A DNA stretch of 64,000 nucleotides from Siphonodentalium dalli (taxonomy: Eukaryota > Mollusca > Scaphopoda > Gadilida > Siphonodentaliidae). Every line of letters starts with the position of its first letter. Position 1 is the first letter of the stretch. The notes under the pieces are model-generated. The model did not search any database. It was given only the letters and a program-made list of their open reading frames with translations, and was not told the origin of the DNA. Shown here one piece after another: positions 2,731 to 56,395 of the stretch. The position numbers were made by a program, and so were the translations under genes. The DNA lies in the NCBI GenBank assembly GCA_032622095.1, contig CP136063.1, positions 26,972,987-27,036,986 of the forward strand. The letters run 5' to 3'.

Positions 2731-3228
2731 GCCTCCCCGGTTATGCTTCATCCTCTACCATGCTCCTTCATTAGCCAAAATTTTGCCCCCACCCAAACCC
2801 CAAAAATATAAGTCCGTCGCTGTTCAAAACTTTTTTTCGTATCAAGTTGCTAATGATTAACTGCATAGAAGATCTCAAATCTGGATACCTTGCATGCCAT
2901 AGCCAGACACAGGATATGAAATAAATCGAGTTTTGCGAACCATGGGCGACAACTCTGTGGCGAAAGCGCGGACATAAATTGTAATGCATTCACCCAATAG
3001 GGCATAATGAGGTGCACATATGGTCCATATTTGGAGTCTCTGCTGCTCATACTTTTCGAGATACAGCATCCCCATTTTTTCACAAAAGGGGAGATAACTC
3101 TGTAAATCAAGGGCGGACAATATCCTATATAGTCTATTGACCTAGAATTAGTATAGGTCTATATACGTACGAAATTCCAGATCTCTATATATTGTACTTC
3201 CAGAGATATAAGAGTTACAAAATTGCTA

Positions 3229-3256
3229 AGAATAATAATAATAATAATAATAATAT
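3229..3256. repeat. (AAT)n microsatellite inside each 1398-bp unit
   Basis: About nine AAT repeats. The tract has the same length in the full units I compared, which is unusual for a microsatellite and points to very recent copying of whole units. Block 1 ends inside this tract at 22819. Confidence 0.85.
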
Positions 3257-3284
3257 TGGAAAAAAATAATAAATTGAATAACAA

Positions 3285-3314
3285 TATACTTCCATATTAA
3301 AATATGGAAGTATA
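3285..3314. repeat. 30-bp perfect palindrome in each 1398-bp unit
   Basis: Arms TATACTTCCATATT and AATATGGAAGTATA are exact 14-bp complements around a 2-nt AA spacer. The palindrome recurs in every full 1398-bp unit (next at 4683). A related palindrome with different inner arm sequence occurs in the 1723-bp family (26517-26547). It could form a hairpin or cruciform or bind a dimeric protein; function unknown. Confidence 0.9.
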
Positions 3315-6300
3315 ATAAGGGAATCGCGCGAAATTGATTGGTATGTCGATATTATGGTTTATTGACATTTCTGTGTTCAGTTTGAACGTTCTGGTGTGAC
3401 CTCCACCCATGCCTCGAAATTTGGTGACGTGGATAGAAAAGTCGCCATATCTCGGCCAATTTTTGAGATATCTTGCTAATTTTTGCGTCATTGTGTTCGT
3501 ATTTGATGCCCCTATACTATTTACCAGGGTTTTGGTGAGGTATTGTGCCGATATTTTATAATGTAGGCCAATATGTATGTTGTTCTGTTCATACTTTTCG
3601 AATATCTCTCGCCTCTATCGACATAATACGGCAAGTAGGTAATCGTTTAGAAGTACTAGAAATTCCCCATCGAATGACACCAAACACGTGACGATTGGTT
3701 GAAGGAATTTAAATTCATAGTGCATTTTCTGTAAACTTGAAAAAAAAGGAAGTGGCCACAATTTCTACATTTCTCAACCGATTCATAAAATTCACTCATA
3801 ATGACACTCAGTACATCTTATAGATACTTCACAACAATTTTGGTTCAAATCAGCGACCAAAAAAAATTGACAAATTTTGACCCCCTCCCTAGTGCGGACA
3901 AATTTCATTGGATCTTGGTCAAAATTTCACCATTTCATCTTCTCTCTATAGATAAGACGCTCACATAAACCAAATCCAGTTTATATGCGTCGTCTAGGAG
4001 GAGATAGAGTCAAAAGCACTTTCTCCTCAATTGATGTATCAATACAATGTTCGATGGTCTGTAACTTGGACATTTCTCAACCGATTTACAAAATTCTTTC
4101 AGGAGGATCATTAGTACGTCCTATAGATACACGACAGTAAAAATATTTGAAATCATCGCAAAAAAAAAATTGCGAAAATTTTGCCCCCACCCAAACCCCA
4201 AAAATATAAGTCCGTCGCTGTTCAAAACTTTTTTTCGTATCAAGTTGCTAATGATTAACTGCATAGAAGATCTCAAATCTGGATACCTTGCATGCCATAG
4301 CCAGACACAGGATATGAAATAAATCGAGTTTTGCGAACCATGGGCGACAACTCTGTGGCGAAAGCGCGGACATAAATTGTAATGCATTCACCCAATAGGG
4401 CATAATGAGGTGCACATATGGTCCATATTTGGAGTCTCTGCTGCTCATACTTTTCGAGATACAGCATCCCCATTTTTTCACAAAAGGGGAGATAACTCTG
4501 TAAATCAAGGGCGGACAATATCCTATATAGTCTATTGACCTAGAATTAGTATAGGTCTATATACGTACGAAATTCCAGATCTCTATATATTGTACTTCCA
4601 GAGATATAAGAGTTACAAAATTGCTAAGAATAATAATAATAATAATAATAATATTGGAAAAAAATAATAAATTGAATAACAATATACTTCCATATTAAAA
4701 TATGGAAGTATAATAAGGGAATCGCGCGAAATTGATTGGTATGTCGATATTATGGTTTATTGACATTTCTGTGTTCAGTTTGAACGTTCTGGTGTGACCT
4801 CCACCCATGCCTCGAAATTTGGTGACGTGGATAGAAAAGTCGCCATATCTCGGCCAATTTTTGAGATATCTTGCTAATTTTTGCGTCATTGTGTTCGTAT
4901 TTGATGCCCCTATACTATTTACCAGGGTTTTGGTGAGGTATTGTGCCGATATTTTATAATGTAGGCCAATATGTATGTTGTTCTGTTCATACTTTTCGAA
5001 TATCTCTCGCCTCTATCGACATAATACGGCAAGTAGGTAATCGTTTAGAAGTACTAGAAATTCCCCATCGAATGACACCAAACACGTGACGATTGGTTGA
5101 AGGAATTTAAATTCATAGTGCATTTTCTGTAAACTTGAAAAAAAAGGAAGTGGCCACAATTTCTACATTTCTCAACCGATTCATAAAATTCACTCATAAT
5201 GACACTCAGTACATCTTATAGATACTTCACAACAATTTTGGTTCAAATCAGCGACCAAAAAAAATTGACAAATTTTGACCCCCTCCCTAGTGCGGACAAA
5301 TTTCATTGGATCTTGGTCAAAATTTCACCATTTCATCTTCTCTCTATAGATAAGACGCTCACATAAACCAAATCCAGTTTATATGCGTCGTCTAGGAGGA
5401 GATAGAGTCAAAAGCACTTTCTCCTCAATTGATGTATCAATACAATGTTCGATGGTCTGTAACTTGGACATTTCTCAACCGATTTACAAAATTCTTTCAG
5501 GAGGATCATTAGTACGTCCTATAGATACACGACAGTAAAAATATTTGAAATCATCGCAAAAAAAAAATTGCGAAAATTTTGCCCCCACCCAAACCCCAAA
5601 AATATAAGTCCGTCGCTGTTCAAAACTTTTTTTCGTATCAAGTTGCTAATGATTAACTGCATAGAAGATCTCAAATCTGGATACCTTGCATGCCATAGCC
5701 AGACACAGGATATGAAATAAATCGAGTTTTGCGAACCATGGGCGACAACTCTGTGGCGAAAGCGCGGACATAAATTGTAATGCATTCACCCAATAGGGCA
5801 TAATGAGGTGCACATATGGTCCATATTTGGAGTCTCTGCTGCTCATACTTTTCGAGATACAGCATCCCCATTTTTTCACAAAAGGGGAGATAACTCTGTA
5901 AATCAAGGGCGGACAATATCCTATATAGTCTATTGACCTAGAATTAGTATAGGTCTATATACGTACGAAATTCCAGATCTCTATATATTGTACTTCCAGA
6001 GATATAAGAGTTACAAAATTGCTAAGAATAATAATAATAATAATAATAATATTGGAAAAAAATAATAAATTGAATAACAATATACTTCCATATTAAAATA
6101 TGGAAGTATAATAAGGGAATCGCGCGAAATTGATTGGTATGTCGATATTATGGTTTATTGACATTTCTGTGTTCAGTTTGAACGTTCTGGTGTGACCTCC
6201 ACCCATGCCTCGAAATTTGGTGACGTGGATAGAAAAGTCGCCATATCTCGGCCAATTTTTGAGATATCTTGCTAATTTTTGCGTCATTGTGTTCGTATTT

Positions 6301-9300
6301 GATGCCCCTATACTATTTACCAGGGTTTTGGTGAGGTATTGTGCCGATATTTTATAATGTAGGCCAATATGTATGTTGTTCTGTTCATACTTTTCGAATA
6401 TCTCTCGCCTCTATCGACATAATACGGCAAGTAGGTAATCGTTTAGAAGTACTAGAAATTCCCCATCGAATGACACCAAACACGTGACGATTGGTTGAAG
6501 GAATTTAAATTCATAGTGCATTTTCTGTAAACTTGAAAAAAAAGGAAGTGGCCACAATTTCTACATTTCTCAACCGATTCATAAAATTCACTCATAATGA
6601 CACTCAGTACATCTTATAGATACTTCACAACAATTTTGGTTCAAATCAGCGACCAAAAAAAATTGACAAATTTTGACCCCCTCCCTAGTGCGGACAAATT
6701 TCATTGGATCTTGGTCAAAATTTCACCATTTCATCTTCTCTCTATAGATAAGACGCTCACATAAACCAAATCCAGTTTATATGCGTCGTCTAGGAGGAGA
6801 TAGAGTCAAAAGCACTTTCTCCTCAATTGATGTATCAATACAATGTTCGATGGTCTGTAACTTGGACATTTCTCAACCGATTTACAAAATTCTTTCAGGA
6901 GGATCATTAGTACGTCCTATAGATACACGACAGTAAAAATATTTGAAATCATCGCAAAAAAAAAATTGCGAAAATTTTGCCCCCACCCAAACCCCAAAAA
7001 TATAAGTCCGTCGCTGTTCAAAACTTTTTTTCGTATCAAGTTGCTAATGATTAACTGCATAGAAGATCTCAAATCTGGATACCTTGCATGCCATAGCCAG
7101 ACACAGGATATGAAATAAATCGAGTTTTGCGAACCATGGGCGACAACTCTGTGGCGAAAGCGCGGACATAAATTGTAATGCATTCACCCAATAGGGCATA
7201 ATGAGGTGCACATATGGTCCATATTTGGAGTCTCTGCTGCTCATACTTTTCGAGATACAGCATCCCCATTTTTTCACAAAAGGGGAGATAACTCTGTAAA
7301 TCAAGGGCGGACAATATCCTATATAGTCTATTGACCTAGAATTAGTATAGGTCTATATACGTACGAAATTCCAGATCTCTATATATTGTACTTCCAGAGA
7401 TATAAGAGTTACAAAATTGCTAAGAATAATAATAATAATAATAATAATATTGGAAAAAAATAATAAATTGAATAACAATATACTTCCATATTAAAATATG
7501 GAAGTATAATAAGGGAATCGCGCGAAATTGATTGGTATGTCGATATTATGGTTTATTGACATTTCTGTGTTCAGTTTGAACGTTCTGGTGTGACCTCCAC
7601 CCATGCCTCGAAATTTGGTGACGTGGATAGAAAAGTCGCCATATCTCGGCCAATTTTTGAGATATCTTGCTAATTTTTGCGTCATTGTGTTCGTATTTGA
7701 TGCCCCTATACTATTTACCAGGGTTTTGGTGAGGTATTGTGCCGATATTTTATAATGTAGGCCAATATGTATGTTGTTCTGTTCATACTTTTCGAATATC
7801 TCTCGCCTCTATCGACATAATACGGCAAGTAGGTAATCGTTTAGAAGTACTAGAAATTCCCCATCGAATGACACCAAACACGTGACGATTGGTTGAAGGA
7901 ATTTAAATTCATAGTGCATTTTCTGTAAACTTGAAAAAAAAGGAAGTGGCCACAATTTCTACATTTCTCAACCGATTCATAAAATTCACTCATAATGACA
8001 CTCAGTACATCTTATAGATACTTCACAACAATTTTGGTTCAAATCAGCGACCAAAAAAAATTGACAAATTTTGACCCCCTCCCTAGTGCGGACAAATTTC
8101 ATTGGATCTTGGTCAAAATTTCACCATTTCATCTTCTCTCTATAGATAAGACGCTCACATAAACCAAATCCAGTTTATATGCGTCGTCTAGGAGGAGATA
8201 GAGTCAAAAGCACTTTCTCCTCAATTGATGTATCAATACAATGTTCGATGGTCTGTAACTTGGACATTTCTCAACCGATTTACAAAATTCTTTCAGGAGG
8301 ATCATTAGTACGTCCTATAGATACACGACAGTAAAAATATTTGAAATCATCGCAAAAAAAAAATTGCGAAAATTTTGCCCCCACCCAAACCCCAAAAATA
8401 TAAGTCCGTCGCTGTTCAAAACTTTTTTTCGTATCAAGTTGCTAATGATTAACTGCATAGAAGATCTCAAATCTGGATACCTTGCATGCCATAGCCAGAC
8501 ACAGGATATGAAATAAATCGAGTTTTGCGAACCATGGGCGACAACTCTGTGGCGAAAGCGCGGACATAAATTGTAATGCATTCACCCAATAGGGCATAAT
8601 GAGGTGCACATATGGTCCATATTTGGAGTCTCTGCTGCTCATACTTTTCGAGATACAGCATCCCCATTTTTTCACAAAAGGGGAGATAACTCTGTAAATC
8701 AAGGGCGGACAATATCCTATATAGTCTATTGACCTAGAATTAGTATAGGTCTATATACGTACGAAATTCCAGATCTCTATATATTGTACTTCCAGAGATA
8801 TAAGAGTTACAAAATTGCTAAGAATAATAATAATAATAATAATAATATTGGAAAAAAATAATAAATTGAATAACAATATACTTCCATATTAAAATATGGA
8901 AGTATAATAAGGGAATCGCGCGAAATTGATTGGTATGTCGATATTATGGTTTATTGACATTTCTGTGTTCAGTTTGAACGTTCTGGTGTGACCTCCACCC
9001 ATGCCTCGAAATTTGGTGACGTGGATAGAAAAGTCGCCATATCTCGGCCAATTTTTGAGATATCTTGCTAATTTTTGCGTCATTGTGTTCGTATTTGATG
9101 CCCCTATACTATTTACCAGGGTTTTGGTGAGGTATTGTGCCGATATTTTATAATGTAGGCCAATATGTATGTTGTTCTGTTCATACTTTTCGAATATCTC
9201 TCGCCTCTATCGACATAATACGGCAAGTAGGTAATCGTTTAGAAGTACTAGAAATTCCCCATCGAATGACACCAAACACGTGACGATTGGTTGAAGGAAT

Positions 9301-11146
9301 TTAAATTCATAGTGCATTTTCTGTAAACTTGAAAAAAAAGGAAGTGGCCACAATTTCTACATTTCTCAACCGATTCATAAAATTCACTCATAATGACACT
9401 CAGTACATCTTATAGATACTTCACAACAATTTTGGTTCAAATCAGCGACCAAAAAAAATTGACAAATTTTGACCCCCTCCCTAGTGCGGACAAATTTCAT
9501 TGGATCTTGGTCAAAATTTCACCATTTCATCTTCTCTCTATAGATAAGACGCTCACATAAACCAAATCCAGTTTATATGCGTCGTCTAGGAGGAGATAGA
9601 GTCAAAAGCACTTTCTCCTCAATTGATGTATCAATACAATGTTCGATGGTCTGTAACTTGGACATTTCTCAACCGATTTACAAAATTCTTTCAGGAGGAT
9701 CATTAGTACGTCCTATAGATACACGACAGTAAAAATATTTGAAATCATCGCAAAAAAAAAATTGCGAAAATTTTGCCCCCACCCAAACCCCAAAAATATA
9801 AGTCCGTCGCTGTTCAAAACTTTTTTTCGTATCAAGTTGCTAATGATTAACTGCATAGAAGATCTCAAATCTGGATACCTTGCATGCCATAGCCAGACAC
9901 AGGATATGAAATAAATCGAGTTTTGCGAACCATGGGCGACAACTCTGTGGCGAAAGCGCGGACATAAATTGTAATGCATTCACCCAATAGGGCATAATGA
10001 GGTGCACATATGGTCCATATTTGGAGTCTCTGCTGCTCATACTTTTCGAGATACAGCATCCCCATTTTTTCACAAAAGGGGAGATAACTCTGTAAATCAA
10101 GGGCGGACAATATCCTATATAGTCTATTGACCTAGAATTAGTATAGGTCTATATACGTACGAAATTCCAGATCTCTATATATTGTACTTCCAGAGATATA
10201 AGAGTTACAAAATTGCTAAGAATAATAATAATAATAATAATAATATTGGAAAAAAATAATAAATTGAATAACAATATACTTCCATATTAAAATATGGAAG
10301 TATAATAAGGGAATCGCGCGAAATTGATTGGTATGTCGATATTATGGTTTATTGACATTTCTGTGTTCAGTTTGAACGTTCTGGTGTGACCTCCACCCAT
10401 GCCTCGAAATTTGGTGACGTGGATAGAAAAGTCGCCATATCTCGGCCAATTTTTGAGATATCTTGCTAATTTTTGCGTCATTGTGTTCGTATTTGATGCC
10501 CCTATACTATTTACCAGGGTTTTGGTGAGGTATTGTGCCGATATTTTATAATGTAGGCCAATATGTATGTTGTTCTGTTCATACTTTTCGAATATCTCTC
10601 GCCTCTATCGACATAATACGGCAAGTAGGTAATCGTTTAGAAGTACTAGAAATTCCCCATCGAATGACACCAAACACGTGACGATTGGTTGAAGGAATTT
10701 AAATTCATAGTGCATTTTCTGTAAACTTGAAAAAAAAGGAAGTGGCCACAATTTCTACATTTCTCAACCGATTCATAAAATTCACTCATAATGACACTCA
10801 GTACATCTTATAGATACTTCACAACAATTTTGGTTCAAATCAGCGACCAAAAAAAATTGACAAATTTTGACCCCCTCCCTAGTGCGGACAAATTTCATTG
10901 GATCTTGGTCAAAATTTCACCATTTCATCTTCTCTCTATAGATAAGACGCTCACATAAACCAAATCCAGTTTATATGCGTCGTCTAGGAGGAGATAGAGT
11001 CAAAAGCACTTTCTCCTCAATTGATGTATCAATACAATGTTCGATGGTCTGTAACTTGGACATTTCTCAACCGATTTACAAAATTCTTTCAGGAGGATCA
11101 TTAGTACGTCCTATAGATACACGACAGTAAAAATATTTGAAATCAT

Positions 11147-11226
11147 ATCGCAAAAAAAAAATTGCGAAAATTTGCCCCCACCCAAACCCCAAAAATATAA
11201 GTCCGTCGCTGTTCAAAACTTTTTTC
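11147..11226. repeat. variant segment of the 1398-bp unit with compensating indels
   Basis: Relative to neighbours this copy has an extra AT dinucleotide before the A run (near 11147), one T fewer before CCCCCACCC, and one T fewer in the following T run. The net length change is zero, so the spacing to neighbours remains 1398 bp. Confidence 0.85.
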
Positions 11227-14200
11227 GTATCAAGTTGCTAATGATTAACTGCATAGAAGATCTCAAATCTGGATACCTTGCATGCCATAGCCAGACACAG
11301 GATATGAAATAAATCGAGTTTTGCGAACCATGGGCGACAACTCTGTGGCGAAAGCGCGGACATAAATTGTAATGCATTCACCCAATAGGGCATAATGAGG
11401 TGCACATATGGTCCATATTTGGAGTCTCTGCTGCTCATACTTTTCGAGATACAGCATCCCCATTTTTTCACAAAAGGGGAGATAACTCTGTAAATCAAGG
11501 GCGGACAATATCCTATATAGTCTATTGACCTAGAATTAGTATAGGTCTATATACGTACGAAATTCCAGATCTCTATATATTGTACTTCCAGAGATATAAG
11601 AGTTACAAAATTGCTAAGAATAATAATAATAATAATAATAATATTGGAAAAAAATAATAAATTGAATAACAATATACTTCCATATTAAAATATGGAAGTA
11701 TAATAAGGGAATCGCGCGAAATTGATTGGTATGTCGATATTATGGTTTATTGACATTTCTGTGTTCAGTTTGAACGTTCTGGTGTGACCTCCACCCATGC
11801 CTCGAAATTTGGTGACGTGGATAGAAAAGTCGCCATATCTCGGCCAATTTTTGAGATATCTTGCTAATTTTTGCGTCATTGTGTTCGTATTTGATGCCCC
11901 TATACTATTTACCAGGGTTTTGGTGAGGTATTGTGCCGATATTTTATAATGTAGGCCAATATGTATGTTGTTCTGTTCATACTTTTCGAATATCTCTCGC
12001 CTCTATCGACATAATACGGCAAGTAGGTAATCGTTTAGAAGTACTAGAAATTCCCCATCGAATGACACCAAACACGTGACGATTGGTTGAAGGAATTTAA
12101 ATTCATAGTGCATTTTCTGTAAACTTGAAAAAAAAGGAAGTGGCCACAATTTCTACATTTCTCAACCGATTCATAAAATTCACTCATAATGACACTCAGT
12201 ACATCTTATAGATACTTCACAACAATTTTGGTTCAAATCAGCGACCAAAAAAAATTGACAAATTTTGACCCCCTCCCTAGTGCGGACAAATTTCATTGGA
12301 TCTTGGTCAAAATTTCACCATTTCATCTTCTCTCTATAGATAAGACGCTCACATAAACCAAATCCAGTTTATATGCGTCGTCTAGGAGGAGATAGAGTCA
12401 AAAGCACTTTCTCCTCAATTGATGTATCAATACAATGTTCGATGGTCTGTAACTTGGACATTTCTCAACCGATTTACAAAATTCTTTCAGGAGGATCATT
12501 AGTACGTCCTATAGATACACGACAGTAAAAATATTTGAAATCATCGCAAAAAAAAAATTGCGAAAATTTTGCCCCCACCCAAACCCCAAAAATATAAGTC
12601 CGTCGCTGTTCAAAACTTTTTTTCGTATCAAGTTGCTAATGATTAACTGCATAGAAGATCTCAAATCTGGATACCTTGCATGCCATAGCCAGACACAGGA
12701 TATGAAATAAATCGAGTTTTGCGAACCATGGGCGACAACTCTGTGGCGAAAGCGCGGACATAAATTGTAATGCATTCACCCAATAGGGCATAATGAGGTG
12801 CACATATGGTCCATATTTGGAGTCTCTGCTGCTCATACTTTTCGAGATACAGCATCCCCATTTTTTCACAAAAGGGGAGATAACTCTGTAAATCAAGGGC
12901 GGACAATATCCTATATAGTCTATTGACCTAGAATTAGTATAGGTCTATATACGTACGAAATTCCAGATCTCTATATATTGTACTTCCAGAGATATAAGAG
13001 TTACAAAATTGCTAAGAATAATAATAATAATAATAATAATATTGGAAAAAAATAATAAATTGAATAACAATATACTTCCATATTAAAATATGGAAGTATA
13101 ATAAGGGAATCGCGCGAAATTGATTGGTATGTCGATATTATGGTTTATTGACATTTCTGTGTTCAGTTTGAACGTTCTGGTGTGACCTCCACCCATGCCT
13201 CGAAATTTGGTGACGTGGATAGAAAAGTCGCCATATCTCGGCCAATTTTTGAGATATCTTGCTAATTTTTGCGTCATTGTGTTCGTATTTGATGCCCCTA
13301 TACTATTTACCAGGGTTTTGGTGAGGTATTGTGCCGATATTTTATAATGTAGGCCAATATGTATGTTGTTCTGTTCATACTTTTCGAATATCTCTCGCCT
13401 CTATCGACATAATACGGCAAGTAGGTAATCGTTTAGAAGTACTAGAAATTCCCCATCGAATGACACCAAACACGTGACGATTGGTTGAAGGAATTTAAAT
13501 TCATAGTGCATTTTCTGTAAACTTGAAAAAAAAGGAAGTGGCCACAATTTCTACATTTCTCAACCGATTCATAAAATTCACTCATAATGACACTCAGTAC
13601 ATCTTATAGATACTTCACAACAATTTTGGTTCAAATCAGCGACCAAAAAAAATTGACAAATTTTGACCCCCTCCCTAGTGCGGACAAATTTCATTGGATC
13701 TTGGTCAAAATTTCACCATTTCATCTTCTCTCTATAGATAAGACGCTCACATAAACCAAATCCAGTTTATATGCGTCGTCTAGGAGGAGATAGAGTCAAA
13801 AGCACTTTCTCCTCAATTGATGTATCAATACAATGTTCGATGGTCTGTAACTTGGACATTTCTCAACCGATTTACAAAATTCTTTCAGGAGGATCATTAG
13901 TACGTCCTATAGATACACGACAGTAAAAATATTTGAAATCATCGCAAAAAAAAAATTGCGAAAATTTTGCCCCCACCCAAACCCCAAAAATATAAGTCCG
14001 TCGCTGTTCAAAACTTTTTTTCGTATCAAGTTGCTAATGATTAACTGCATAGAAGATCTCAAATCTGGATACCTTGCATGCCATAGCCAGACACAGGATA
14101 TGAAATAAATCGAGTTTTGCGAACCATGGGCGACAACTCTGTGGCGAAAGCGCGGACATAAATTGTAATGCATTCACCCAATAGGGCATAATGAGGTGCA

Positions 14201-17200
14201 CATATGGTCCATATTTGGAGTCTCTGCTGCTCATACTTTTCGAGATACAGCATCCCCATTTTTTCACAAAAGGGGAGATAACTCTGTAAATCAAGGGCGG
14301 ACAATATCCTATATAGTCTATTGACCTAGAATTAGTATAGGTCTATATACGTACGAAATTCCAGATCTCTATATATTGTACTTCCAGAGATATAAGAGTT
14401 ACAAAATTGCTAAGAATAATAATAATAATAATAATAATATTGGAAAAAAATAATAAATTGAATAACAATATACTTCCATATTAAAATATGGAAGTATAAT
14501 AAGGGAATCGCGCGAAATTGATTGGTATGTCGATATTATGGTTTATTGACATTTCTGTGTTCAGTTTGAACGTTCTGGTGTGACCTCCACCCATGCCTCG
14601 AAATTTGGTGACGTGGATAGAAAAGTCGCCATATCTCGGCCAATTTTTGAGATATCTTGCTAATTTTTGCGTCATTGTGTTCGTATTTGATGCCCCTATA
14701 CTATTTACCAGGGTTTTGGTGAGGTATTGTGCCGATATTTTATAATGTAGGCCAATATGTATGTTGTTCTGTTCATACTTTTCGAATATCTCTCGCCTCT
14801 ATCGACATAATACGGCAAGTAGGTAATCGTTTAGAAGTACTAGAAATTCCCCATCGAATGACACCAAACACGTGACGATTGGTTGAAGGAATTTAAATTC
14901 ATAGTGCATTTTCTGTAAACTTGAAAAAAAAGGAAGTGGCCACAATTTCTACATTTCTCAACCGATTCATAAAATTCACTCATAATGACACTCAGTACAT
15001 CTTATAGATACTTCACAACAATTTTGGTTCAAATCAGCGACCAAAAAAAATTGACAAATTTTGACCCCCTCCCTAGTGCGGACAAATTTCATTGGATCTT
15101 GGTCAAAATTTCACCATTTCATCTTCTCTCTATAGATAAGACGCTCACATAAACCAAATCCAGTTTATATGCGTCGTCTAGGAGGAGATAGAGTCAAAAG
15201 CACTTTCTCCTCAATTGATGTATCAATACAATGTTCGATGGTCTGTAACTTGGACATTTCTCAACCGATTTACAAAATTCTTTCAGGAGGATCATTAGTA
15301 CGTCCTATAGATACACGACAGTAAAAATATTTGAAATCATCGCAAAAAAAAAATTGCGAAAATTTTGCCCCCACCCAAACCCCAAAAATATAAGTCCGTC
15401 GCTGTTCAAAACTTTTTTTCGTATCAAGTTGCTAATGATTAACTGCATAGAAGATCTCAAATCTGGATACCTTGCATGCCATAGCCAGACACAGGATATG
15501 AAATAAATCGAGTTTTGCGAACCATGGGCGACAACTCTGTGGCGAAAGCGCGGACATAAATTGTAATGCATTCACCCAATAGGGCATAATGAGGTGCACA
15601 TATGGTCCATATTTGGAGTCTCTGCTGCTCATACTTTTCGAGATACAGCATCCCCATTTTTTCACAAAAGGGGAGATAACTCTGTAAATCAAGGGCGGAC
15701 AATATCCTATATAGTCTATTGACCTAGAATTAGTATAGGTCTATATACGTACGAAATTCCAGATCTCTATATATTGTACTTCCAGAGATATAAGAGTTAC
15801 AAAATTGCTAAGAATAATAATAATAATAATAATAATATTGGAAAAAAATAATAAATTGAATAACAATATACTTCCATATTAAAATATGGAAGTATAATAA
15901 GGGAATCGCGCGAAATTGATTGGTATGTCGATATTATGGTTTATTGACATTTCTGTGTTCAGTTTGAACGTTCTGGTGTGACCTCCACCCATGCCTCGAA
16001 ATTTGGTGACGTGGATAGAAAAGTCGCCATATCTCGGCCAATTTTTGAGATATCTTGCTAATTTTTGCGTCATTGTGTTCGTATTTGATGCCCCTATACT
16101 ATTTACCAGGGTTTTGGTGAGGTATTGTGCCGATATTTTATAATGTAGGCCAATATGTATGTTGTTCTGTTCATACTTTTCGAATATCTCTCGCCTCTAT
16201 CGACATAATACGGCAAGTAGGTAATCGTTTAGAAGTACTAGAAATTCCCCATCGAATGACACCAAACACGTGACGATTGGTTGAAGGAATTTAAATTCAT
16301 AGTGCATTTTCTGTAAACTTGAAAAAAAAGGAAGTGGCCACAATTTCTACATTTCTCAACCGATTCATAAAATTCACTCATAATGACACTCAGTACATCT
16401 TATAGATACTTCACAACAATTTTGGTTCAAATCAGCGACCAAAAAAAATTGACAAATTTTGACCCCCTCCCTAGTGCGGACAAATTTCATTGGATCTTGG
16501 TCAAAATTTCACCATTTCATCTTCTCTCTATAGATAAGACGCTCACATAAACCAAATCCAGTTTATATGCGTCGTCTAGGAGGAGATAGAGTCAAAAGCA
16601 CTTTCTCCTCAATTGATGTATCAATACAATGTTCGATGGTCTGTAACTTGGACATTTCTCAACCGATTTACAAAATTCTTTCAGGAGGATCATTAGTACG
16701 TCCTATAGATACACGACAGTAAAAATATTTGAAATCATCGCAAAAAAAAAATTGCGAAAATTTTGCCCCCACCCAAACCCCAAAAATATAAGTCCGTCGC
16801 TGTTCAAAACTTTTTTTCGTATCAAGTTGCTAATGATTAACTGCATAGAAGATCTCAAATCTGGATACCTTGCATGCCATAGCCAGACACAGGATATGAA
16901 ATAAATCGAGTTTTGCGAACCATGGGCGACAACTCTGTGGCGAAAGCGCGGACATAAATTGTAATGCATTCACCCAATAGGGCATAATGAGGTGCACATA
17001 TGGTCCATATTTGGAGTCTCTGCTGCTCATACTTTTCGAGATACAGCATCCCCATTTTTTCACAAAAGGGGAGATAACTCTGTAAATCAAGGGCGGACAA
17101 TATCCTATATAGTCTATTGACCTAGAATTAGTATAGGTCTATATACGTACGAAATTCCAGATCTCTATATATTGTACTTCCAGAGATATAAGAGTTACAA

Positions 17201-20200
17201 AATTGCTAAGAATAATAATAATAATAATAATAATATTGGAAAAAAATAATAAATTGAATAACAATATACTTCCATATTAAAATATGGAAGTATAATAAGG
17301 GAATCGCGCGAAATTGATTGGTATGTCGATATTATGGTTTATTGACATTTCTGTGTTCAGTTTGAACGTTCTGGTGTGACCTCCACCCATGCCTCGAAAT
17401 TTGGTGACGTGGATAGAAAAGTCGCCATATCTCGGCCAATTTTTGAGATATCTTGCTAATTTTTGCGTCATTGTGTTCGTATTTGATGCCCCTATACTAT
17501 TTACCAGGGTTTTGGTGAGGTATTGTGCCGATATTTTATAATGTAGGCCAATATGTATGTTGTTCTGTTCATACTTTTCGAATATCTCTCGCCTCTATCG
17601 ACATAATACGGCAAGTAGGTAATCGTTTAGAAGTACTAGAAATTCCCCATCGAATGACACCAAACACGTGACGATTGGTTGAAGGAATTTAAATTCATAG
17701 TGCATTTTCTGTAAACTTGAAAAAAAAGGAAGTGGCCACAATTTCTACATTTCTCAACCGATTCATAAAATTCACTCATAATGACACTCAGTACATCTTA
17801 TAGATACTTCACAACAATTTTGGTTCAAATCAGCGACCAAAAAAAATTGACAAATTTTGACCCCCTCCCTAGTGCGGACAAATTTCATTGGATCTTGGTC
17901 AAAATTTCACCATTTCATCTTCTCTCTATAGATAAGACGCTCACATAAACCAAATCCAGTTTATATGCGTCGTCTAGGAGGAGATAGAGTCAAAAGCACT
18001 TTCTCCTCAATTGATGTATCAATACAATGTTCGATGGTCTGTAACTTGGACATTTCTCAACCGATTTACAAAATTCTTTCAGGAGGATCATTAGTACGTC
18101 CTATAGATACACGACAGTAAAAATATTTGAAATCATCGCAAAAAAAAAATTGCGAAAATTTTGCCCCCACCCAAACCCCAAAAATATAAGTCCGTCGCTG
18201 TTCAAAACTTTTTTTCGTATCAAGTTGCTAATGATTAACTGCATAGAAGATCTCAAATCTGGATACCTTGCATGCCATAGCCAGACACAGGATATGAAAT
18301 AAATCGAGTTTTGCGAACCATGGGCGACAACTCTGTGGCGAAAGCGCGGACATAAATTGTAATGCATTCACCCAATAGGGCATAATGAGGTGCACATATG
18401 GTCCATATTTGGAGTCTCTGCTGCTCATACTTTTCGAGATACAGCATCCCCATTTTTTCACAAAAGGGGAGATAACTCTGTAAATCAAGGGCGGACAATA
18501 TCCTATATAGTCTATTGACCTAGAATTAGTATAGGTCTATATACGTACGAAATTCCAGATCTCTATATATTGTACTTCCAGAGATATAAGAGTTACAAAA
18601 TTGCTAAGAATAATAATAATAATAATAATAATATTGGAAAAAAATAATAAATTGAATAACAATATACTTCCATATTAAAATATGGAAGTATAATAAGGGA
18701 ATCGCGCGAAATTGATTGGTATGTCGATATTATGGTTTATTGACATTTCTGTGTTCAGTTTGAACGTTCTGGTGTGACCTCCACCCATGCCTCGAAATTT
18801 GGTGACGTGGATAGAAAAGTCGCCATATCTCGGCCAATTTTTGAGATATCTTGCTAATTTTTGCGTCATTGTGTTCGTATTTGATGCCCCTATACTATTT
18901 ACCAGGGTTTTGGTGAGGTATTGTGCCGATATTTTATAATGTAGGCCAATATGTATGTTGTTCTGTTCATACTTTTCGAATATCTCTCGCCTCTATCGAC
19001 ATAATACGGCAAGTAGGTAATCGTTTAGAAGTACTAGAAATTCCCCATCGAATGACACCAAACACGTGACGATTGGTTGAAGGAATTTAAATTCATAGTG
19101 CATTTTCTGTAAACTTGAAAAAAAAGGAAGTGGCCACAATTTCTACATTTCTCAACCGATTCATAAAATTCACTCATAATGACACTCAGTACATCTTATA
19201 GATACTTCACAACAATTTTGGTTCAAATCAGCGACCAAAAAAAATTGACAAATTTTGACCCCCTCCCTAGTGCGGACAAATTTCATTGGATCTTGGTCAA
19301 AATTTCACCATTTCATCTTCTCTCTATAGATAAGACGCTCACATAAACCAAATCCAGTTTATATGCGTCGTCTAGGAGGAGATAGAGTCAAAAGCACTTT
19401 CTCCTCAATTGATGTATCAATACAATGTTCGATGGTCTGTAACTTGGACATTTCTCAACCGATTTACAAAATTCTTTCAGGAGGATCATTAGTACGTCCT
19501 ATAGATACACGACAGTAAAAATATTTGAAATCATCGCAAAAAAAAAATTGCGAAAATTTTGCCCCCACCCAAACCCCAAAAATATAAGTCCGTCGCTGTT
19601 CAAAACTTTTTTTCGTATCAAGTTGCTAATGATTAACTGCATAGAAGATCTCAAATCTGGATACCTTGCATGCCATAGCCAGACACAGGATATGAAATAA
19701 ATCGAGTTTTGCGAACCATGGGCGACAACTCTGTGGCGAAAGCGCGGACATAAATTGTAATGCATTCACCCAATAGGGCATAATGAGGTGCACATATGGT
19801 CCATATTTGGAGTCTCTGCTGCTCATACTTTTCGAGATACAGCATCCCCATTTTTTCACAAAAGGGGAGATAACTCTGTAAATCAAGGGCGGACAATATC
19901 CTATATAGTCTATTGACCTAGAATTAGTATAGGTCTATATACGTACGAAATTCCAGATCTCTATATATTGTACTTCCAGAGATATAAGAGTTACAAAATT
20001 GCTAAGAATAATAATAATAATAATAATAATATTGGAAAAAAATAATAAATTGAATAACAATATACTTCCATATTAAAATATGGAAGTATAATAAGGGAAT
20101 CGCGCGAAATTGATTGGTATGTCGATATTATGGTTTATTGACATTTCTGTGTTCAGTTTGAACGTTCTGGTGTGACCTCCACCCATGCCTCGAAATTTGG

Positions 20201-22819
20201 TGACGTGGATAGAAAAGTCGCCATATCTCGGCCAATTTTTGAGATATCTTGCTAATTTTTGCGTCATTGTGTTCGTATTTGATGCCCCTATACTATTTAC
20301 CAGGGTTTTGGTGAGGTATTGTGCCGATATTTTATAATGTAGGCCAATATGTATGTTGTTCTGTTCATACTTTTCGAATATCTCTCGCCTCTATCGACAT
20401 AATACGGCAAGTAGGTAATCGTTTAGAAGTACTAGAAATTCCCCATCGAATGACACCAAACACGTGACGATTGGTTGAAGGAATTTAAATTCATAGTGCA
20501 TTTTCTGTAAACTTGAAAAAAAAGGAAGTGGCCACAATTTCTACATTTCTCAACCGATTCATAAAATTCACTCATAATGACACTCAGTACATCTTATAGA
20601 TACTTCACAACAATTTTGGTTCAAATCAGCGACCAAAAAAAATTGACAAATTTTGACCCCCTCCCTAGTGCGGACAAATTTCATTGGATCTTGGTCAAAA
20701 TTTCACCATTTCATCTTCTCTCTATAGATAAGACGCTCACATAAACCAAATCCAGTTTATATGCGTCGTCTAGGAGGAGATAGAGTCAAAAGCACTTTCT
20801 CCTCAATTGATGTATCAATACAATGTTCGATGGTCTGTAACTTGGACATTTCTCAACCGATTTACAAAATTCTTTCAGGAGGATCATTAGTACGTCCTAT
20901 AGATACACGACAGTAAAAATATTTGAAATCATCGCAAAAAAAAAATTGCGAAAATTTTGCCCCCACCCAAACCCCAAAAATATAAGTCCGTCGCTGTTCA
21001 AAACTTTTTTTCGTATCAAGTTGCTAATGATTAACTGCATAGAAGATCTCAAATCTGGATACCTTGCATGCCATAGCCAGACACAGGATATGAAATAAAT
21101 CGAGTTTTGCGAACCATGGGCGACAACTCTGTGGCGAAAGCGCGGACATAAATTGTAATGCATTCACCCAATAGGGCATAATGAGGTGCACATATGGTCC
21201 ATATTTGGAGTATCTGCTGCTCATACTTTTCGAGATACAGCATCCCCATTTTTTCACAAAAGGGGAGATAACTCTGTAAATCAAGGGCGGACAATATCCT
21301 ATATAGTCTATTGACCTAGAATTAGTATAGGTCTATATACGTACGAAATTCCAGATCTCTATATATTGTACTTCCAGAGATATAAGAGTTACAAAATTGC
21401 TAAGAATAATAATAATAATAATAATAATATTGGAAAAAAATAATAAATTGAATAACAATATACTTCCATATTAAAATATGGAAGTATAATAAGGGAATCG
21501 CGCGAAATTGATTGGTATGTCGATATTATGGTTTATTGACATTTCTGTGTTCAGTTTGAACGTTCTGGTGTGACCTCCACCCATGCCTCGAAATTTGGTG
21601 ACGTGGATAGAAAAGTCGCCATATCTCGGCCAATTTTTGAGATATCTTGCTAATTTTTGCGTCATTGTGTTCGTATTTGATGCCCCTATACTATTTACCA
21701 GGGTTTTGGTGAGGTATTGTGCCGATATTTTATAATGTAGGCCAATATGTATGTTGTTCTGTTCATACTTTTCGAATATCTCTCGCCTCTATCGACATAA
21801 TACGGCAAGTAGGTAATCGTTTAGAAGTACTAGAAATTCCCCATCGAATGACACCAAACACGTGACGATTGGTTGAAGGAATTTAAATTCATAGTGCATT
21901 TTCTGTAAACTTGAAAAAAAAGGAAGTGGCCACAATTTCTACATTTCTCAACCGATTCATAAAATTCACTCATAATGACACTCAGTACATCTTATAGATA
22001 CTTCACAACAATTTTGGTTCAAATCAGCGACCAAAAAAAATTGACAAATTTTGACCCCCTCCCTAGTGCGGACAACTTTCATTGGATCTTGGTCAAAATT
22101 TCACCATTTCATCTTCTCTCTATAGATAAGACGCTCACATAAACCAAATCCAGTTTATATGCGTCGTCTAGGAGGAGATAGAGTCAAAAGCACTTTCTCC
22201 TCAATTGATGTATCAATACAATGTTCGATGGTCTGTAACTTGGACATTTCTCAACCGATTTACAAAATTCTTTCAGGAGGATCATTAGTACGTCCTATAG
22301 ATACACGACAGTAAAAATATTTGAAATCATCGCAAAAAAAAAATTGCGAAAATTTTGCCCCCACCCAAACCCCAAAAATATAAGTCCGTCGCTGTTCAAA
22401 ACTTTTTTTCGTATCAAGTTGCTAATGATTAACTGCATAGAAGATCTCAAATCTGGATACCTTGCATGCCATAGCCAGACACAGGATATGAAATAAATCG
22501 AGTTTTGCGAACCATGGGCGACAACTCTGTGGCGAAAGCGCGGACATAAATTGTAATGCATTCACCCAATAGGGCATAATGAGGTGCACATATGGTCCAT
22601 ATTTGGAGTCTCTGCTGCTCATACTTTTCGAGATACAGCATCCCCATTTTTTCACAAAAGGGGAGATAACTCTGTAAATCAAGGGCGGACAATATCCTAT
22701 ATAGTCTATTGACCTAGAATTAGTATAGGTCTATATACGTACGAAATTCCAGATCTCTATATATTGTACTTCCAGAGATATAAGAGTTACAAAATTGCTA
22801 AGAATAATAATAATAATAA

Positions 22820-23560: not shown

Positions 23561-23570
23561 ATTTATATTA

Positions 23571-24265: not shown

Positions 24266-24380
24266 TAGCGGAAAGGGGTATATATAGTCACGCATTTCAA
24301 TCAGTTTGGATATAAAGTTTAAATATACACAGTTATATGCCTATATATTTAATACTAATATATGTTCTTATAAATTAACA

Positions 24381-24460
24381 GCGCAGTGCGTAGCCGAGTG
24401 GTGAGAGCGTCAAACCTTCAGTTTGTGTTTTATTGCGACGTGAGTTCGAATCCCGTCAAA
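24381..24460 (+). repeat. tRNA-derived SINE head (degenerate class II tRNA-like)
   Basis: A-box-like TAGCCGAGTGGT at 24391-24402 and B-box-like AGTTCGAATCC at 24443-24453 have tRNA spacing. Between them are an anticodon-arm-like CAAA..TTTG and a long variable region, as in Ser/Leu tRNAs. The seven bases before the A box (CAGTGCG) do not pair with the region after the T arm (CAAATTA), and the T stem is imperfect, so this is not a functional tRNA. An AT-rich stretch follows. It most likely derives from a SINE or a tRNA pseudogene. Confidence 0.55.
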
Positions 24461-25329
24461 TTATCTACTATTTATTTTTTATTTTTAACATGCTTTGGTG
24501 TATTTTAATCATCAAATACGAATAATACCAAACTAAAGATAATGTAAAGATGCTTTTTATATTCGATAAATAACTAGAATATAAACGTCGATGTGTTATT
24601 GAATCGGATATAAAACAATAAACACGTGGGTCGGTTTTCGCATATATAACATGAAGCGCGCTTAATGAACGTTCGGTCCGAAGAATATAATGAGTGATTA
24701 ACAACAACACACAAAGAGTTTGAACGTAATCGAACAGAAAAGAGCGTTCTCTATAAGTAGATTCCTTTATGGTAGGAATAATGAGCGGTTGTTTCACGAT
24801 TGCTTTTTGACAATACTTAAATGACGGTGAACGAAACTATCAGTGGTGTTTTATTTTGCGAAAGTATAAAAGGAGTCATTTCCAATTCAGCAGACATATA
24901 CTGACGGAAATAATTGAATGTCTATCAGCAGTATACTACGGTTTATAACAATATACAAATTGTTCTTACGAAAATGATGATGTTTGCATGTTTCTATGTG
25001 TTTATCGTTGTTATCGCAAATGGAATAATTGGCTATACGTCGTCATTACGTTAGTAGAAATATACACCGTACAACGAAGGTTTGTTTGATCAAATTAATG
25101 TAATGTTTGTATTTTGTTTGGTTGTATATGATATGCAATGCGTTGAAGATGCGAAAGAAAATACAAAAGTGAAATGCACGCACGCAGATAGCTCATGACA
25201 CACTATACACGATAAAATGATAATTTACCACACACCATGGGGTACACAATTTACGAATAGGTGGGTTTATATTAAAATCCAAGTTATTTGATTTATAACG
25301 GCTCCGATATGAACTCATACCAATTGTTG
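24461..25329. other. unassigned AT-rich DNA
   Basis: No gene recognised. A 109-codon minus-strand frame (24468-24797) is rich in Leu, Ile and Tyr but has no motif, signal or splice context, and is consistent with chance in AT-rich DNA. Confidence 0.35.
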
Positions 25330-25440
25330 GAATTCGACGGGCGTTCTATCAGTTCTCTGGTAGAGGATTGAGACTGGCCCGCGGCAAGACGGGTGTATCG
25401 AATCGGAGGTAGGTTCCATCCCACGGGCGATGGGGTAGCC
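25330..25440 (+). repeat. possible second tRNA-derived SINE head
   Basis: AGTTCTCTGGTAGAGGATTG (25351-25370) resembles a tRNA D-arm, and AGGTTCCATCCC (25411-25422) resembles a B box. A GC-rich arm CCCGCGGCAAGACGGG lies between them. The A box is weak and the acceptor stem is absent. The GC content is locally much higher than in the flanks. A low-confidence SINE-like relic. Confidence 0.35.
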
Positions 25441-25704
25441 GGAGAGAGGGGAGTGACAATTTTTTGGCGTATATATAGATAATATATATTATATATATAA
25501 GCGGAATTATTTTGAAGAGCTCTTTTCACTTGACTGAGAACAAAATAATGTTCTATGTCCAAAAGTTTTGGTTGAAATATTGGAGCCTTTTTCAAAAAGT
25601 GAAAACAAAATGAACGACTTTTCTGGGACAGGTCGATTTGGATCCGTTTTGGACTCTGGATTTCCCAAAAGTCATCTCCGTTTCGCGTGTAGCATAATAT
25701 GAAT
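25441..25704. other. unassigned DNA before the 1723-bp array
   Basis: Contains a short TA-rich tract (25470-25500). A 151-codon minus-strand frame (25293-25748) overlaps both the SINE-like head and the start of the 1723-bp repeat, so it is judged accidental. Confidence 0.35.
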
Positions 25705-28700
25705 CTTCGGAGGAGATGTGTTATCAAGCACATGGGCCCAAATTGCAAACTTTGAGGGCCCGTAACTCTTGCATTTCTTCTCGGATTTCAAAAATCCTTT
25801 CCGGTATGAGTTTGTTTTCGTTCGGGAAATACATAAACTTAAATATATGAATGTCAATCAAAATTTTATTTTTCAAAAAATTTGCCCCCCACCCCAGTGT
25901 CAAAATATATGTCCGACCCTGTCAAATTTTCCTTCTCTGACTAAACTGACAACGGTCAACACGACTATGAAAACCACATGCAGTTATCTGGAATGATACA
26001 AGAGGACAACAGAGTACAATCAAATAGAGGTTTGCCAACTATGGGCGGTAACTCCTCAGGGAAAGCGCGGACACAAGTTCTGATGCCCGTGGGCAGTAGG
26101 GCATATCGAGATGTGCATACAGTCCAATTTTCGATGCTCTGCTCCTTATAATTTCCGAGATAATCAAATAACATTTTTTCAGATAAAGGGAGATAACTCC
26201 TCGGGTAAAACGCGGACAATATTCGTTATGCGACGATGGCATACAACTCTTTGATCCCAAGATACGTACCAAGTTTTAGTGTGCTACTCCTGGTACTTTT
26301 CGAGTAATAAGGGTTGCAAAAGTGTCCAGTATAATAATAATGAAAAATAATCGAAAAAGGGCCATAACTCTGTCAAAAGATATTGGACCAACATCCGGAT
26401 ACCATTATTTTTAGTAGACCTTAGATGCCTTCATTCGCTAGAGATTTCGCGGTCCTCCTCCCATTAGTTTCTGAGTATTTCCAATTAAACAGAAAACGGC
26501 CGCAGTAGAAAAACAATATACTTCCTTGGTTACACCATGGAAGTATAATAATAGGGAAAATCATGAGTGGAAAGAATCGCAGTTTCGGGACGGAAAATAT
26601 AAGTATTGTGAGTATATGTTGTCCTAACATGTGTAGGTTGATCTCAAGTGTTTGGACGTGACCCCACCCCTACCTCGAAATTGGGTGACGGGATTGGGAA
26701 AACATCAACCCTGGCACAAAATGCGAAGTTTGAGGGCCCGTAACTCCGTTAGTTTCCAACAGATTTAAAAATTGTTTTCAGTTTTGCGATCTGCCGCTGA
26801 CCTAGATTGCACAACATAAATTTCATCTGATTCGAACCCGAATAACACTTTGGTTATTGGAAAGCATATGGGCCCAAATTCAAAATTGGATGGCCAAAAT
26901 CTCCGCCATTTTCACACGGATTTACGATCTGTTTTCAGCTTCGAGATCAACGTATATGGTAGATGTTACATTCCAAGTTTCATCTGATTCGGAGAAGAAT
27001 AACAAAAATGGTACCACGGACTACCCCTCCCCTGACCCACAATACTGAACCGACACTGGCAAAATTTGGTCCACCGCGTGCCCTCTTCAGTCCGTACGTA
27101 TTTTCGTATCAGATGACATCCTATGTTCGATATCTTCGGAGGAGATGTGTTATCAAGCACATGGGTCCAAAATTGCAAAGTTTGAGGGTCCGCAATTATG
27201 TCAGTTTTCGATGGATTTTCGAAATTCTTTCAATTTCGAGATCGACTGATGTTGGAGATGTTATATTCCAAGTTTCATCTGATTCGGAGAAGAATTAAAA
27301 ATTGGTACAACGGACCACCCCTCCCCAGACCCACAATAATGAACAGACACTGGAAAAATTTGGCCCACCGCGTGCTCTCTTCCGTCCGCACACGTTGGCG
27401 TATAAGATGATATCCTATGTTCGATACCTTCGGAGGAGATGTGTTATCAAGCACATGGGCCCAAATTGCAAACTTTGAGGGCCCGTAACTCTTGCATTTC
27501 TTCTCGGATTTCAAAAATCCTTTCCGGTATGAGTTTGTTTTCGTTCGGGAAATACATAAACTTAAATATATGAATGTCAATCAAAATTTTATTTTTCAAA
27601 AAATTTGCCCCCCACCCCAGTGTCAAAATATATGTCCGACCCTGTCAAATTTTCCTTCTCTGACTAAACTGACAACGGTCAACACGACTATGAAAACCAC
27701 ATGCAGTTATCTGGAATGATACAAGAGGACAACAGAGTACAATCAAATAGAGGTTTGCCAACTATGGGCGGTAACTCCTCAGGGAAAGCGCGGACACAAG
27801 TTATGATGCCCGTGGGCAGTATGGCATATCGAGATGTGCATACAGTCCAATTTTCGATGCTCTGCTCCTTATAATTTCCGAGATAATCAAATAAAAAATT
27901 TTCAGATAAAGGGAGATAACTCCTCGGGGAAAACGCGGACAATATTCGTTATGCGACGATGGCATACAACTCTTTGATCCCAAGATACGTACCAAGTTTT
28001 AGTGTGCTACTCCTGGTACTTTTCGAGTAATAAGGGTTGCAAAAGTGTCCAGTATAATAATAATGAAAAATAATCGAAAAAGGGCCATAACTCTGTCAAA
28101 AGATATTGGACCAACATCCGGATACCATTATTTTTAGTAGACCTTAGATGCCTTCATTCGCTAGAGATTTCGCGGTCCTCTTCCCATTAGTTTCTGAGTA
28201 TTTCCAATTAAACAGAAAACGGCCGCAGTAGAAAAACAATATACTTCCTTGGTTACACCATGGAAGTATAATAATAGGGAAAATCATGAGTGGAAAGAAT
28301 CGCAGTTTCGGGACGGAAAATATAAGTATTGTGAGTATATGTTGTCCTAACATGTGTAGGTTGATCTCAAGTGTTTGGACGTGACCCCACCCCTACCTCG
28401 AAATTGGGTGACGGGATTGGGAAAACATCAACCCTGGCACAAAATGCGAAGTTTGAGGGCCCGTAACTCCGTTAGTTTCCAACGGATTTAAAAATTGTTT
28501 TCAGTTTTGCGATCTGCCGCTGACCTAGATTGCACAACATAAATTTCATCTGATTCGAACCCGAATAACACTTTGGTTATTGGAAAGCATATGGGCCCAA
28601 ATTCAAAATTGGATGGCCAAAATCTCCGCCATTTTCACACGGATTTACGATCTGTTTTCAGCTTCGAGATCAACGTATATGGTAGATGTTACATTCCAAG

Positions 28701-29639
28701 TTTCATCTGATTCGGAGAAGAATAAAAAAAATGGTACCACGGACTACCCCTCCCCTGACCCACAATACTGAACCGACACTGGCAAAATTTGGTCCACCGC
28801 GTGCCCTCTTCAGTCCGTACGTATTTTCGTATCAGATGACATCCTATGTTCGATATCTTCGGAGGAGATGTGTTATCAAGCACATGGGTCCAAAATTGCA
28901 AAGTTTGAGGGTCCGCAATTATGTCAGTTTTCGATGGATTTTCGAAATTCTTTCAATTTCGAGATCGACTGATGTTGGAGATGTTATATTCCAAGTTTCA
29001 TCTGATTCGGAGAAGAATTAAAAATTGGTACAACGGACCACCCCTCCCCAGACCCACAATAATGAACAGACACTGGAAAAATTTGGCCCACCGCGTGCTC
29101 TCTTCCGTCCGCACACGTTGGCGTATAAGATGATATCCTATGTTCGATACCTTCGGAGGAGATGTGTTATCAAGCACATGGGCCCAAATTGCAAACTTTG
29201 AGGGCCCGTAACTCTTGCATTTCTTCTCGGATTTCAAAAATCCTTTCCGGTATGAGTTTGTTTTCGTTCGGGAAATACATAAACTTAAATATATGAATGT
29301 CAATCAAAATTTTATTTTTCAAAAAATTTGCCCCCCACCCCAGTGTCAAAATATATGTCCGACCCTGTCAAATTTTCCTTCTCTGACTAAACTGACAACG
29401 GTCAACACGACTATGAAAACCACATGCAGTTATCTGGAATGATACAAGAGGACAACAGAGTACAATCAAATAGAGGTTTGCCAACTATGGGCGGTAACTC
29501 CTCAGGGAAAGCGCGGACACAAGTTATGATGCCCGTGGGCAGTATGGCATATCGAGATGTGCATACAGTCCAATTTTCGATGCTCTGCTCCTTATAATTT
29601 CCGAGATAATCAAATAACATTTTTTCAGATAAAGGGAGA
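25705..29639. repeat. 1723-bp tandem repeat, ~2.3 copies, diverged relative of the 1398-bp unit
   Basis: Landmark CTTCGGAGGAGATG recurs at 25705, 27428 and 29151, exactly 1723 bp apart. Copies differ at scattered sites (for example near 26060-26200 versus 27783-27930). Internally there are ~294-bp subunits beginning CACATGGGxCCAAA (26868, 27161, 27455) and AACTC boxes at 26050, 26195 and 26366. The order of shared blocks matches the 1398-bp unit: TTTGCCCCCxACCC, ATGGGCGxxAACTC, GGGAGATAACTC, CTTTTCGAG, AAT repeats, TATACTTCC palindrome, CCTCGAAATT. The third copy is cut abruptly at 29639 and joined to a 1398-bp unit. Confidence 0.95.
26517..26547. repeat. palindrome of the 1723-bp unit
   Basis: TATACTTCCTTGGT, spacer TAC, ACCATGGAAGTATA: 13 of 14 arm positions pair. 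It is repeated at 28240-28270. The outer nine bases equal those of the 1398-bp palindrome; the inner five differ on both arms while mostly keeping complementarity. Confidence 0.85.
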
Positions 29640-49511: not shown

Positions 49512-49600
49512 AGAGTACACTGAAACTGCATTGTTCTTGGTTGAGTTTTTTAAATTCTCATACTATAGTCTCATTGGTTTGGTCTGGTACGTGTTCGGCG

Positions 49601-56350: not shown

Positions 56351-56395
56351 TTCAGCCAACATTACTGTCCCAAATGCATTGATAACACTTGGTGT

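Follow-up and report, generated by a model that had tools for sequence, protein, structure and literature searches.

Two neighbouring arrays of long tandem units

In the scaphopod mollusc Siphonodentalium dalli, a 64,000-nucleotide stretch of contig CP136063.1 (hereafter the window) contains two kinds of tandem arrays, one with a unit of 1398 bp (A) and the other with a unit of 1723 bp (B), which raises the question of whether these long units are related and how they were put together from smaller parts. The original prediction, made from the letters of the sequence, was that A and B are modular paralogs that carry the same short blocks in the same order and that grew from a single ancestor of about 145-300 bp. 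Our analysis makes it probable that A and B represent paralogous monomers of a complex long-unit satellite DNA that arose through a series of tandem duplications. It does not support a single ancestral module. This is a well-supported yet essentially ordinary case of satellite DNA evolution, and the mechanism is a familiar one.

Both tandem periods were borne out by an offset scan, which placed the 1398-bp period at 2751-22849 (in three stretches) and 29611-46338 and the 1723-bp period at 25679-29665, with edges blurred by the 200 bases over which the scan was taken, and by BLAST, from which the following array edges were obtained.

2774..22819, plus strand: left part of the A array; 1398-bp unit in about 14.3 copies, ending on the right within a (TAA)n tract
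25705..29639, plus strand: B array; 1723-bp unit in about 2.3 copies, 99.46% identity across 2212 bp
29640..46317, plus strand: A array, right part; about 11.9 copies, abutting a 100-N assembly gap at 46318-46417
2785..4182, plus strand: A reference unit, opening at GCCCCC
25884..27606, plus strand: B reference unit, opening at GCCCCC

The arrays have two hallmarks of satellite DNA, being composed of near-identical units arranged head to tail, with no evident coding capacity and no known RNA gene. When the A copies were cut at an exact anchor, 21 of the 24 complete copies were identical in sequence, and the remaining three differed by a net one-base insertion, a one-base deletion and two substitutions, respectively. 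The two B copies compared differ at 9 positions per 1723 bp. This degree of identity indicates that the amplification of the whole units was very recent. The GC content of the A unit is about 0.36. The longest stop-free frame is 105 amino acids in A and 111 amino acids in B, no Rfam model matched the window at the gathering threshold, and none matched up to an E-value of 1 in 22700-27700, a segment that covers B and hardly any of A. No transfer RNA (tRNA) genes were called by ARAGORN with bacterial settings, and the ten-base periodicity of AA/TT had a value of about 4 in all four sequences, arrays and flanks alike, so that the measure used does not tell them apart. In the absence of any coding or known RNA function in these searches, the arrays have most likely spread as non-coding satellite DNA.

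Kinship of the two units

The kinship between A and B is far above chance. Their global alignment is collinear along the whole unit, and the local alignment score of 257.5 greatly exceeds the scores obtained with 300 dinucleotide shuffles of B (mean 32.3, maximum 48), where the B unit was cut one base earlier than 25884. The part between the AAT tract and GTGACG scored 78, as compared with at most 38.5 in 300 shuffles, and the part beyond GTGACG scored 68, as compared with at most 46.5. BLAST aligned 2777-3251 in A with 25877-26351 in B at 65.4% identity over 480 bp (E 6e-47), and the segment from GCCCCC to GTGACG has 72.0% identity in 629 aligned columns, a gap-optimised and hence somewhat high value that corresponds to a Kimura two-parameter distance of 0.35. 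The description of A and B as modular paralogs thus holds in the sense that they are collinear relatives that share modules.

The eight short blocks that had been named as common to both units fared less uniformly. Seven were found as written in both units, whereas GCCCCC.ACCC fits B only, its counterpart in A reading GCCCCCACCC, which is shorter by one base. Likewise, seven of the eight blocks follow the same order, the displaced one being CTTTTCGAG, which is located at 3052 in A, ahead of GGGAGATAACTC (3089), and at 26296 in B, behind GGGAGATAACTC (26188). In A, the exact word CTTTTCGAG lies at the end of module Ia, whereas in B it lies at the end of module Ib (modules are described below), and a second copy of GTGACG is present at 3688 in A. 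Between A and B, the longest stretches without a mismatch measure 14, 14, 13, 12 and 11 bp, and the mean longest run was 16.9 bp when the matches were shuffled. The exact blocks are no longer than 72% identity predicts, and special conservation of the named blocks was not seen in this comparison. Since the run lengths are within expectation, we regard the named blocks as the best-matching stretches of two diverged relatives. The motifs GGGAGATAACTC and GGGCCATAACTC may hint at a mollusc origin.

Two families of modules

Two types of modules are present in the units. Of the type I modules (about 145 bp), A carries two and B three; of the type II modules (about 145 bp or 293-303 bp), A carries two and B four. 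Profiles built with each module left out in turn recovered 11 of 11 modules, with E-values from 2.7e-50 to 0.0048, as compared with 1.8 for the best match in reversed sequence. The features of the two units are as follows, with the leave-one-out E-values in brackets and, where the tested borders differ from those of the module tree, the tested interval.

2938..3086, plus strand: A module Ia (E 3.6e-17)
3087..3226, plus strand: A module Ib (E 6e-9)
3227..3255, plus strand: A (TAA)n tract
3285..3314, no strand: A palindrome, perfect 14-bp arms and a 2-bp spacer
3428..3744, plus strand: A-specific segment of 317 bp, unmatched in B and in the A modules, containing the predicted module at 3441
3745..4037, plus strand: A module IIb (E 9.5e-12, tested as 3745-4050)
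4038..4335, plus strand: A module IIc, crossing the unit boundary (E 3.9e-18, tested as 4050-4350)
26036..26184, plus strand: B module Ia (E 3.1e-19)
26185..26330, plus strand: B module Ib (E 1e-17)
26355..26500, plus strand: B module Ic, without a counterpart in A (alignment gap) (E 0.0048)
26517..26547, no strand: B palindrome, arms paired at 13 of 14 positions, spacer of 3 bp
26712..26856, plus strand: B module IIa, short form (E 1e-17, tested as 26725-26868)
26857..27149, plus strand: B module IIb (E 2.1e-41, tested as 26869-27163)
27150..27442, plus strand: B module IIc, 80.4% identical to B IIb (E 2.7e-50, tested as 27164-27456)
27443..27757, plus strand: B module IId, crossing the unit boundary (E 1.9e-18, tested as 27457-27757)

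Twelve module positions had been proposed, and the profiles uphold eleven of these, the weakest being the one at 26359 in B. The module at 3441 was rejected: the segment 3428-3744 is unlike B, unlike the other A modules and unlike both profiles. Its alignment scores against two stretches of B were 16 and 24, which were matched by 200 and 151 of 200 shuffles, and its score against the remaining tail of A was 26.5 (matched by 45 of 200).

No clear relationship emerged between type I and type II. Among the 30 pairs of a type I and a type II module, each compared with 60 shuffles of its own, 29 scored inside the shuffled range, and a single pair, B Ia and B IIb, scored above all shuffles by half a point. 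B Ia also scored high against A IIc, B IIa and B IIc (matched by 3, 4 and 6 of 60 shuffles) and low against A IIb (41 of 60). The type I profile had no same-strand match to any type II module at an E-value of 10, and its single match in a type II module was on the opposite strand (E 3.1). The notion that both units grew from one ancestor of 145-300 bp is therefore not supported, with 29 of 30 pairs within their shuffles and the segment at 3428-3744 fitting neither type. The scores of B Ia may hint at a very old kinship between the two types, the signal of which could have been lost.

A likely order of events

The tree of type I modules, which is based on five short sequences, joins A Ia to B Ia (68.9% identity, support 0.935). 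A Ib and B Ib also form a pair (60.7% identity, support 0.608), and Ia and Ib of the same unit have only 49-52% identity. Since Ia groups with Ia and Ib with Ib across the units, the duplication into Ia and Ib most likely predates the split between A and B, and the grouping indicates that the composite already existed before the two parted. In the type II tree, the B modules IIa, IIb and IIc form a cluster with a support of 0.992. This clustering, along with the 80.4% identity of IIb and IIc, is most simply explained if these modules post-date the A/B split. Furthermore, A IIc is more similar to A IIb (55.1%) than to the equally placed B IId (52.9%). The type II data support the view that multiplication, or homogenisation, of these modules took place mostly within the separate lineages.

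As suggested by the five-sequence tree, we propose that a type I module was first duplicated and became part of one composite ancestor that also included type II modules, a palindrome and an AAT tract. The composite then divided, as the alignment shows, into the A and B lineages, which are now about 0.35 substitutions per site apart. Next, as the module tree suggests, the type II modules would have multiplied or been homogenised separately in each lineage. The parts specific to one lineage are the extra type I module (Ic) in B and the unrelated 317-bp segment in A. Finally, the identity of the copies indicates that each composite was amplified head to tail recently, possibly through unequal crossing-over or a circular intermediate. 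Homogenisation often wipes out such an order of events, and it is the presence of two diverged paralogs of one composite unit on the same contig that allows module duplication, composite formation, split and unit amplification to be placed in sequence.

Several observations weigh against this scheme. The support for the Ib grouping is only 0.608, the type II modules do not group cleanly by position, as the identities of A IIc given above illustrate, and module Ic in B is the weakest of all modules in the leave-one-out test. The A blocks on the two sides of B are out of phase, which implies that sequence was deleted, joined without homology or mis-joined at some point in the history of the locus, and the near-perfect A copies could partly be a product of the assembly. 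The A and B copies considered here are those of the 64-kb window.

Comparison with known satellites

Satellite DNA with long units is already on record in molluscs. The respective reports describe a satellite in Rapana venosa with an AT-rich unit of 1460 bp, attributed to an ancestor of 400-500 bp (PMC11121367), the 3287-bp CgiSat38 of Crassostrea gigas (PMC8268682), and Ac4p1 of Adamussium colbecki, with a unit of about 726 bp and a variable number of subrepeats (PMC5874043). As far as these descriptions go, A and B resemble all three in having long tandem units, and A also shares the AT-richness of the Rapana unit. They differ from these satellites, which we know by description, in that two diverged paralogous units adjoin each other, with two module families that are not clearly related.

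Relatives were also sought outside the window. A pattern for the modules was found in 0 viral and 3 bacterial contigs and a pattern for the palindrome in 7 viral contigs, and none of these ten loci matched the module profiles with an E-value better than 0.38. At one of them (L008), the match falls inside a bacterial gene with RCC1-like repeats, as named by eye. The B unit, the one of the two that was searched against phage records, had no match there at E 1e-3. A text search for the motifs in the literature returned unrelated papers only, in open-licence text, where repeat sequences are seldom printed.

A possible rolling-circle origin

Another hypothesis is that the composite is a non-autonomous Helentron-type rolling-circle element (HINE/pearl), with core repeats of about 145 bp, a microsatellite and a terminal palindrome, the arrays having arisen through rolling-circle read-through. 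Both units do contain modules of about 145 bp along with a palindrome and an AAT tract, and the palindrome, microsatellite and modules, in their order on the minus strand, would suit a head-to-tail junction of such elements; by the same token, the order of parts fits solely across a junction of this kind on that strand. In oyster, Cg_HINE is described as having repeats of mostly 140-180 bp that are flanked by a microsatellite on the left and a palindrome on the right (PMC7492417). The likeness to Cg_HINE and to pearl (CvA) of bivalves thus lies in core repeats of about 140-180 bp, a microsatellite and a palindrome (PMC7492417). In our units, by contrast, the whole composite of 1.4-1.7 kb is the tandem unit, and subterminal inverted repeats of 11-12 bp near the palindrome were not in excess of chance, whether exact or with one mismatch, although more diverged ones would escape this search.

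The exact inverted repeats of at least 11 bp in A are the palindrome itself and a pair at 3872/3917 within IIb, and B has none; no inverted repeat of at least 11 bp lies beside the palindrome. At a minimum of 9 bp, there were 6 inverted repeats in A, as compared with 7.1 in shuffles, and 13 in B, as compared with 6.7, some of which are repeats of module motifs. For 11-bp words within 60 bp of the palindrome, partners with at most one mismatch numbered 3 in A and 4 in B, and 18 of 40 and 8 of 40 shuffles, respectively, matched these numbers. Helentron-type elements occur as dispersed copies inserted at T-T without target duplication. The array edges in the window fall at differing unit phases, without a fixed end, which also speaks against an element of this type. 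We therefore consider a rolling-circle origin unlikely.

A possible contribution from the assembly

It could also be argued that the form of the arrays stems in part from the assembly, with consensus copying behind the identical copies and a chimeric join behind the out-of-phase junctions at 22819 and 29640. The A array ends at 22819 in (TAA)n and restarts at 29640 at a different phase (473 versus 119, counted from the array start at 2774), and at 29640 no clear base overlap between A and B could be seen by eye. A clean insertion into one A array would have preserved the phase, and the shift therefore implies that sequence was lost, that non-homologous ends were joined or that a mis-join occurred. 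The identity of 21 of 24 A copies and the end of the A array against the 100-N gap would likewise suit an assembly effect. However, three copies have private variants, and the one with two substitutions is the last complete copy ahead of the edge at 22819; units near array edges often deviate. Nor can consensus copying or a chimeric join give rise to the kinship between A and B. Overall, an assembly effect on the form of the arrays seems quite improbable to us.

The palindrome

A further possibility is that the palindrome is a working site, such as a cruciform or the target of a recombinase or nickase, that drives the amplification of the units. The palindromes of A and B both fold into hairpins of about -15 kcal/mol with RNA parameters, and they are located 30 bp (A) and about 175 bp (B) from the AAT tract. 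The two longest exact A/B runs (14 bp each) correspond to the palindrome arms and their flanks, but runs of 14 bp are expected at 72% identity. By eye, two inner arm pairs of the 14 are altered on both sides with the pairing kept (A-T to G-C and T-A to G-C), and one pair has been lost in B (A-T in A, T-T in B). Template switching within palindromes yields equal paired changes, so the altered pairs are suggestive, but two sequences cannot separate this process from selection. An analogy is provided by the bivalve satellite phBglII400, for which all 16 mapped junctions are reported to lie in palindromes, 13 of them in the longer one; for other satellites, the same report describes junctions that are unlinked to palindromes (PMC5139131). 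None of the array edges in the window lies in the palindrome, and one (22819) lies in the nearby TAA tract. Taken together, a driving role for the palindrome appears very unlikely.

A sequence reminiscent of the palindrome is also present outside the arrays. A half-palindrome, TATACTTCCATGG, is located at 22847, just beyond the edge of the left A array; its homology to the units was considered and left as unproven, with scores of 27 and 28 that were matched by 87 and 61 of 200 shuffles. At this place (22819-22870), TATACTTCC lies 28 bp past the (TAA)n array end and is followed by ATGG, resembling the palindrome of the units, and this is its sole occurrence outside the arrays on either strand.

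Finally, a higher-order repeat of one ancestral monomer is not supported, as the submodules do not point to one ancestor. Primate alpha-satellite higher-order repeats likewise contain diverged monomers inside a unit with near-identical copies, whereas the units considered here combine two module families with further parts, namely a unique segment, a palindrome and an AAT tract, and so are not a higher-order repeat of one monomer.

A third array and neighbouring sequence

A third, degenerate array lies further along the contig.

56582..58447, minus strand: third array (C), period of about 145/290 bp, probable distant relative of the type II modules

In C, the type II profile hits 57416-57331 on the minus strand (E 2e-4), with four further matches within 56588-57103 (E 0.011, 0.028, 0.044 and 1.1) and a weak one at 57839-57793 (E 5.1), as compared with an E-value of 1.6 for its best match in reversed sequence. 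In a 2120-bp stretch at this locus, four matches (7.5-15.2 bits) exceeded the best of 100 shuffles (5.5 bits), although tandem copies are not independent of each other. Reciprocally, a profile of five C copies had a single match elsewhere in the window, at 3836-3889 within module IIb of A (E 0.0012), and nothing in reversed sequence; the five copies were chosen for their match to type II, so this search rechecks the same similarity and is not independent. The type I profile had no match in the C array. The similarity, short as it is, makes it likely that C is distant kin of the type II modules.

One tentative hypothesis, which we consider less probable than not by a wide measure, is that type II, and perhaps type I, belong to an old unnamed superfamily of non-coding modules of about 145 bp that is scattered in the genomes of this lineage and has repeatedly seeded arrays in either orientation; A, B and C would be three of its products, with the palindrome aiding the launch of unit amplification. 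If true, and if the superfamily is widespread, this would help to explain the origin of long satellite monomers.

The window contains several other repeats and open frames. Another degenerate repeat family, with matches of 61-74%, occupies 1532-2468 and 23239-24252, thus flanking the left A array and lying between A and B. BLAST aligned 1822-2150 with 23277-23572 (66%) and 2289-2477 with 24055-24252 (72.5%), and these matches show that the segment between the arrays (22820-25704) holds repeats akin to those of the left flank. The same segment contains tandem repeats of about 123 bp at 23599-23944 that are about 72% alike, and at 24385-24465 a sequence that looks tRNA-like by eye, with a GTAGCCGAGTGG start and a GAGTTCGAATCC box, possibly the head of a short interspersed element (SINE), which ARAGORN (bacterial settings) did not call. 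Beyond the right A array, a 280-amino-acid open frame without a Pfam match at 49514-50356 (plus strand) may be a gene or a fragment of an element, and a 136-amino-acid frame at 50669-51079 (minus strand) has a weak match to zf-RVT (E 0.02, under the curated cut-off) and is possibly the tail of a non-long-terminal-repeat retrotransposon. A tandem duplication of 1.44 kb at 51338-54086 is 94.5% identical between its copies, and partial copies are found at 51059-51380 and 56045-56354.

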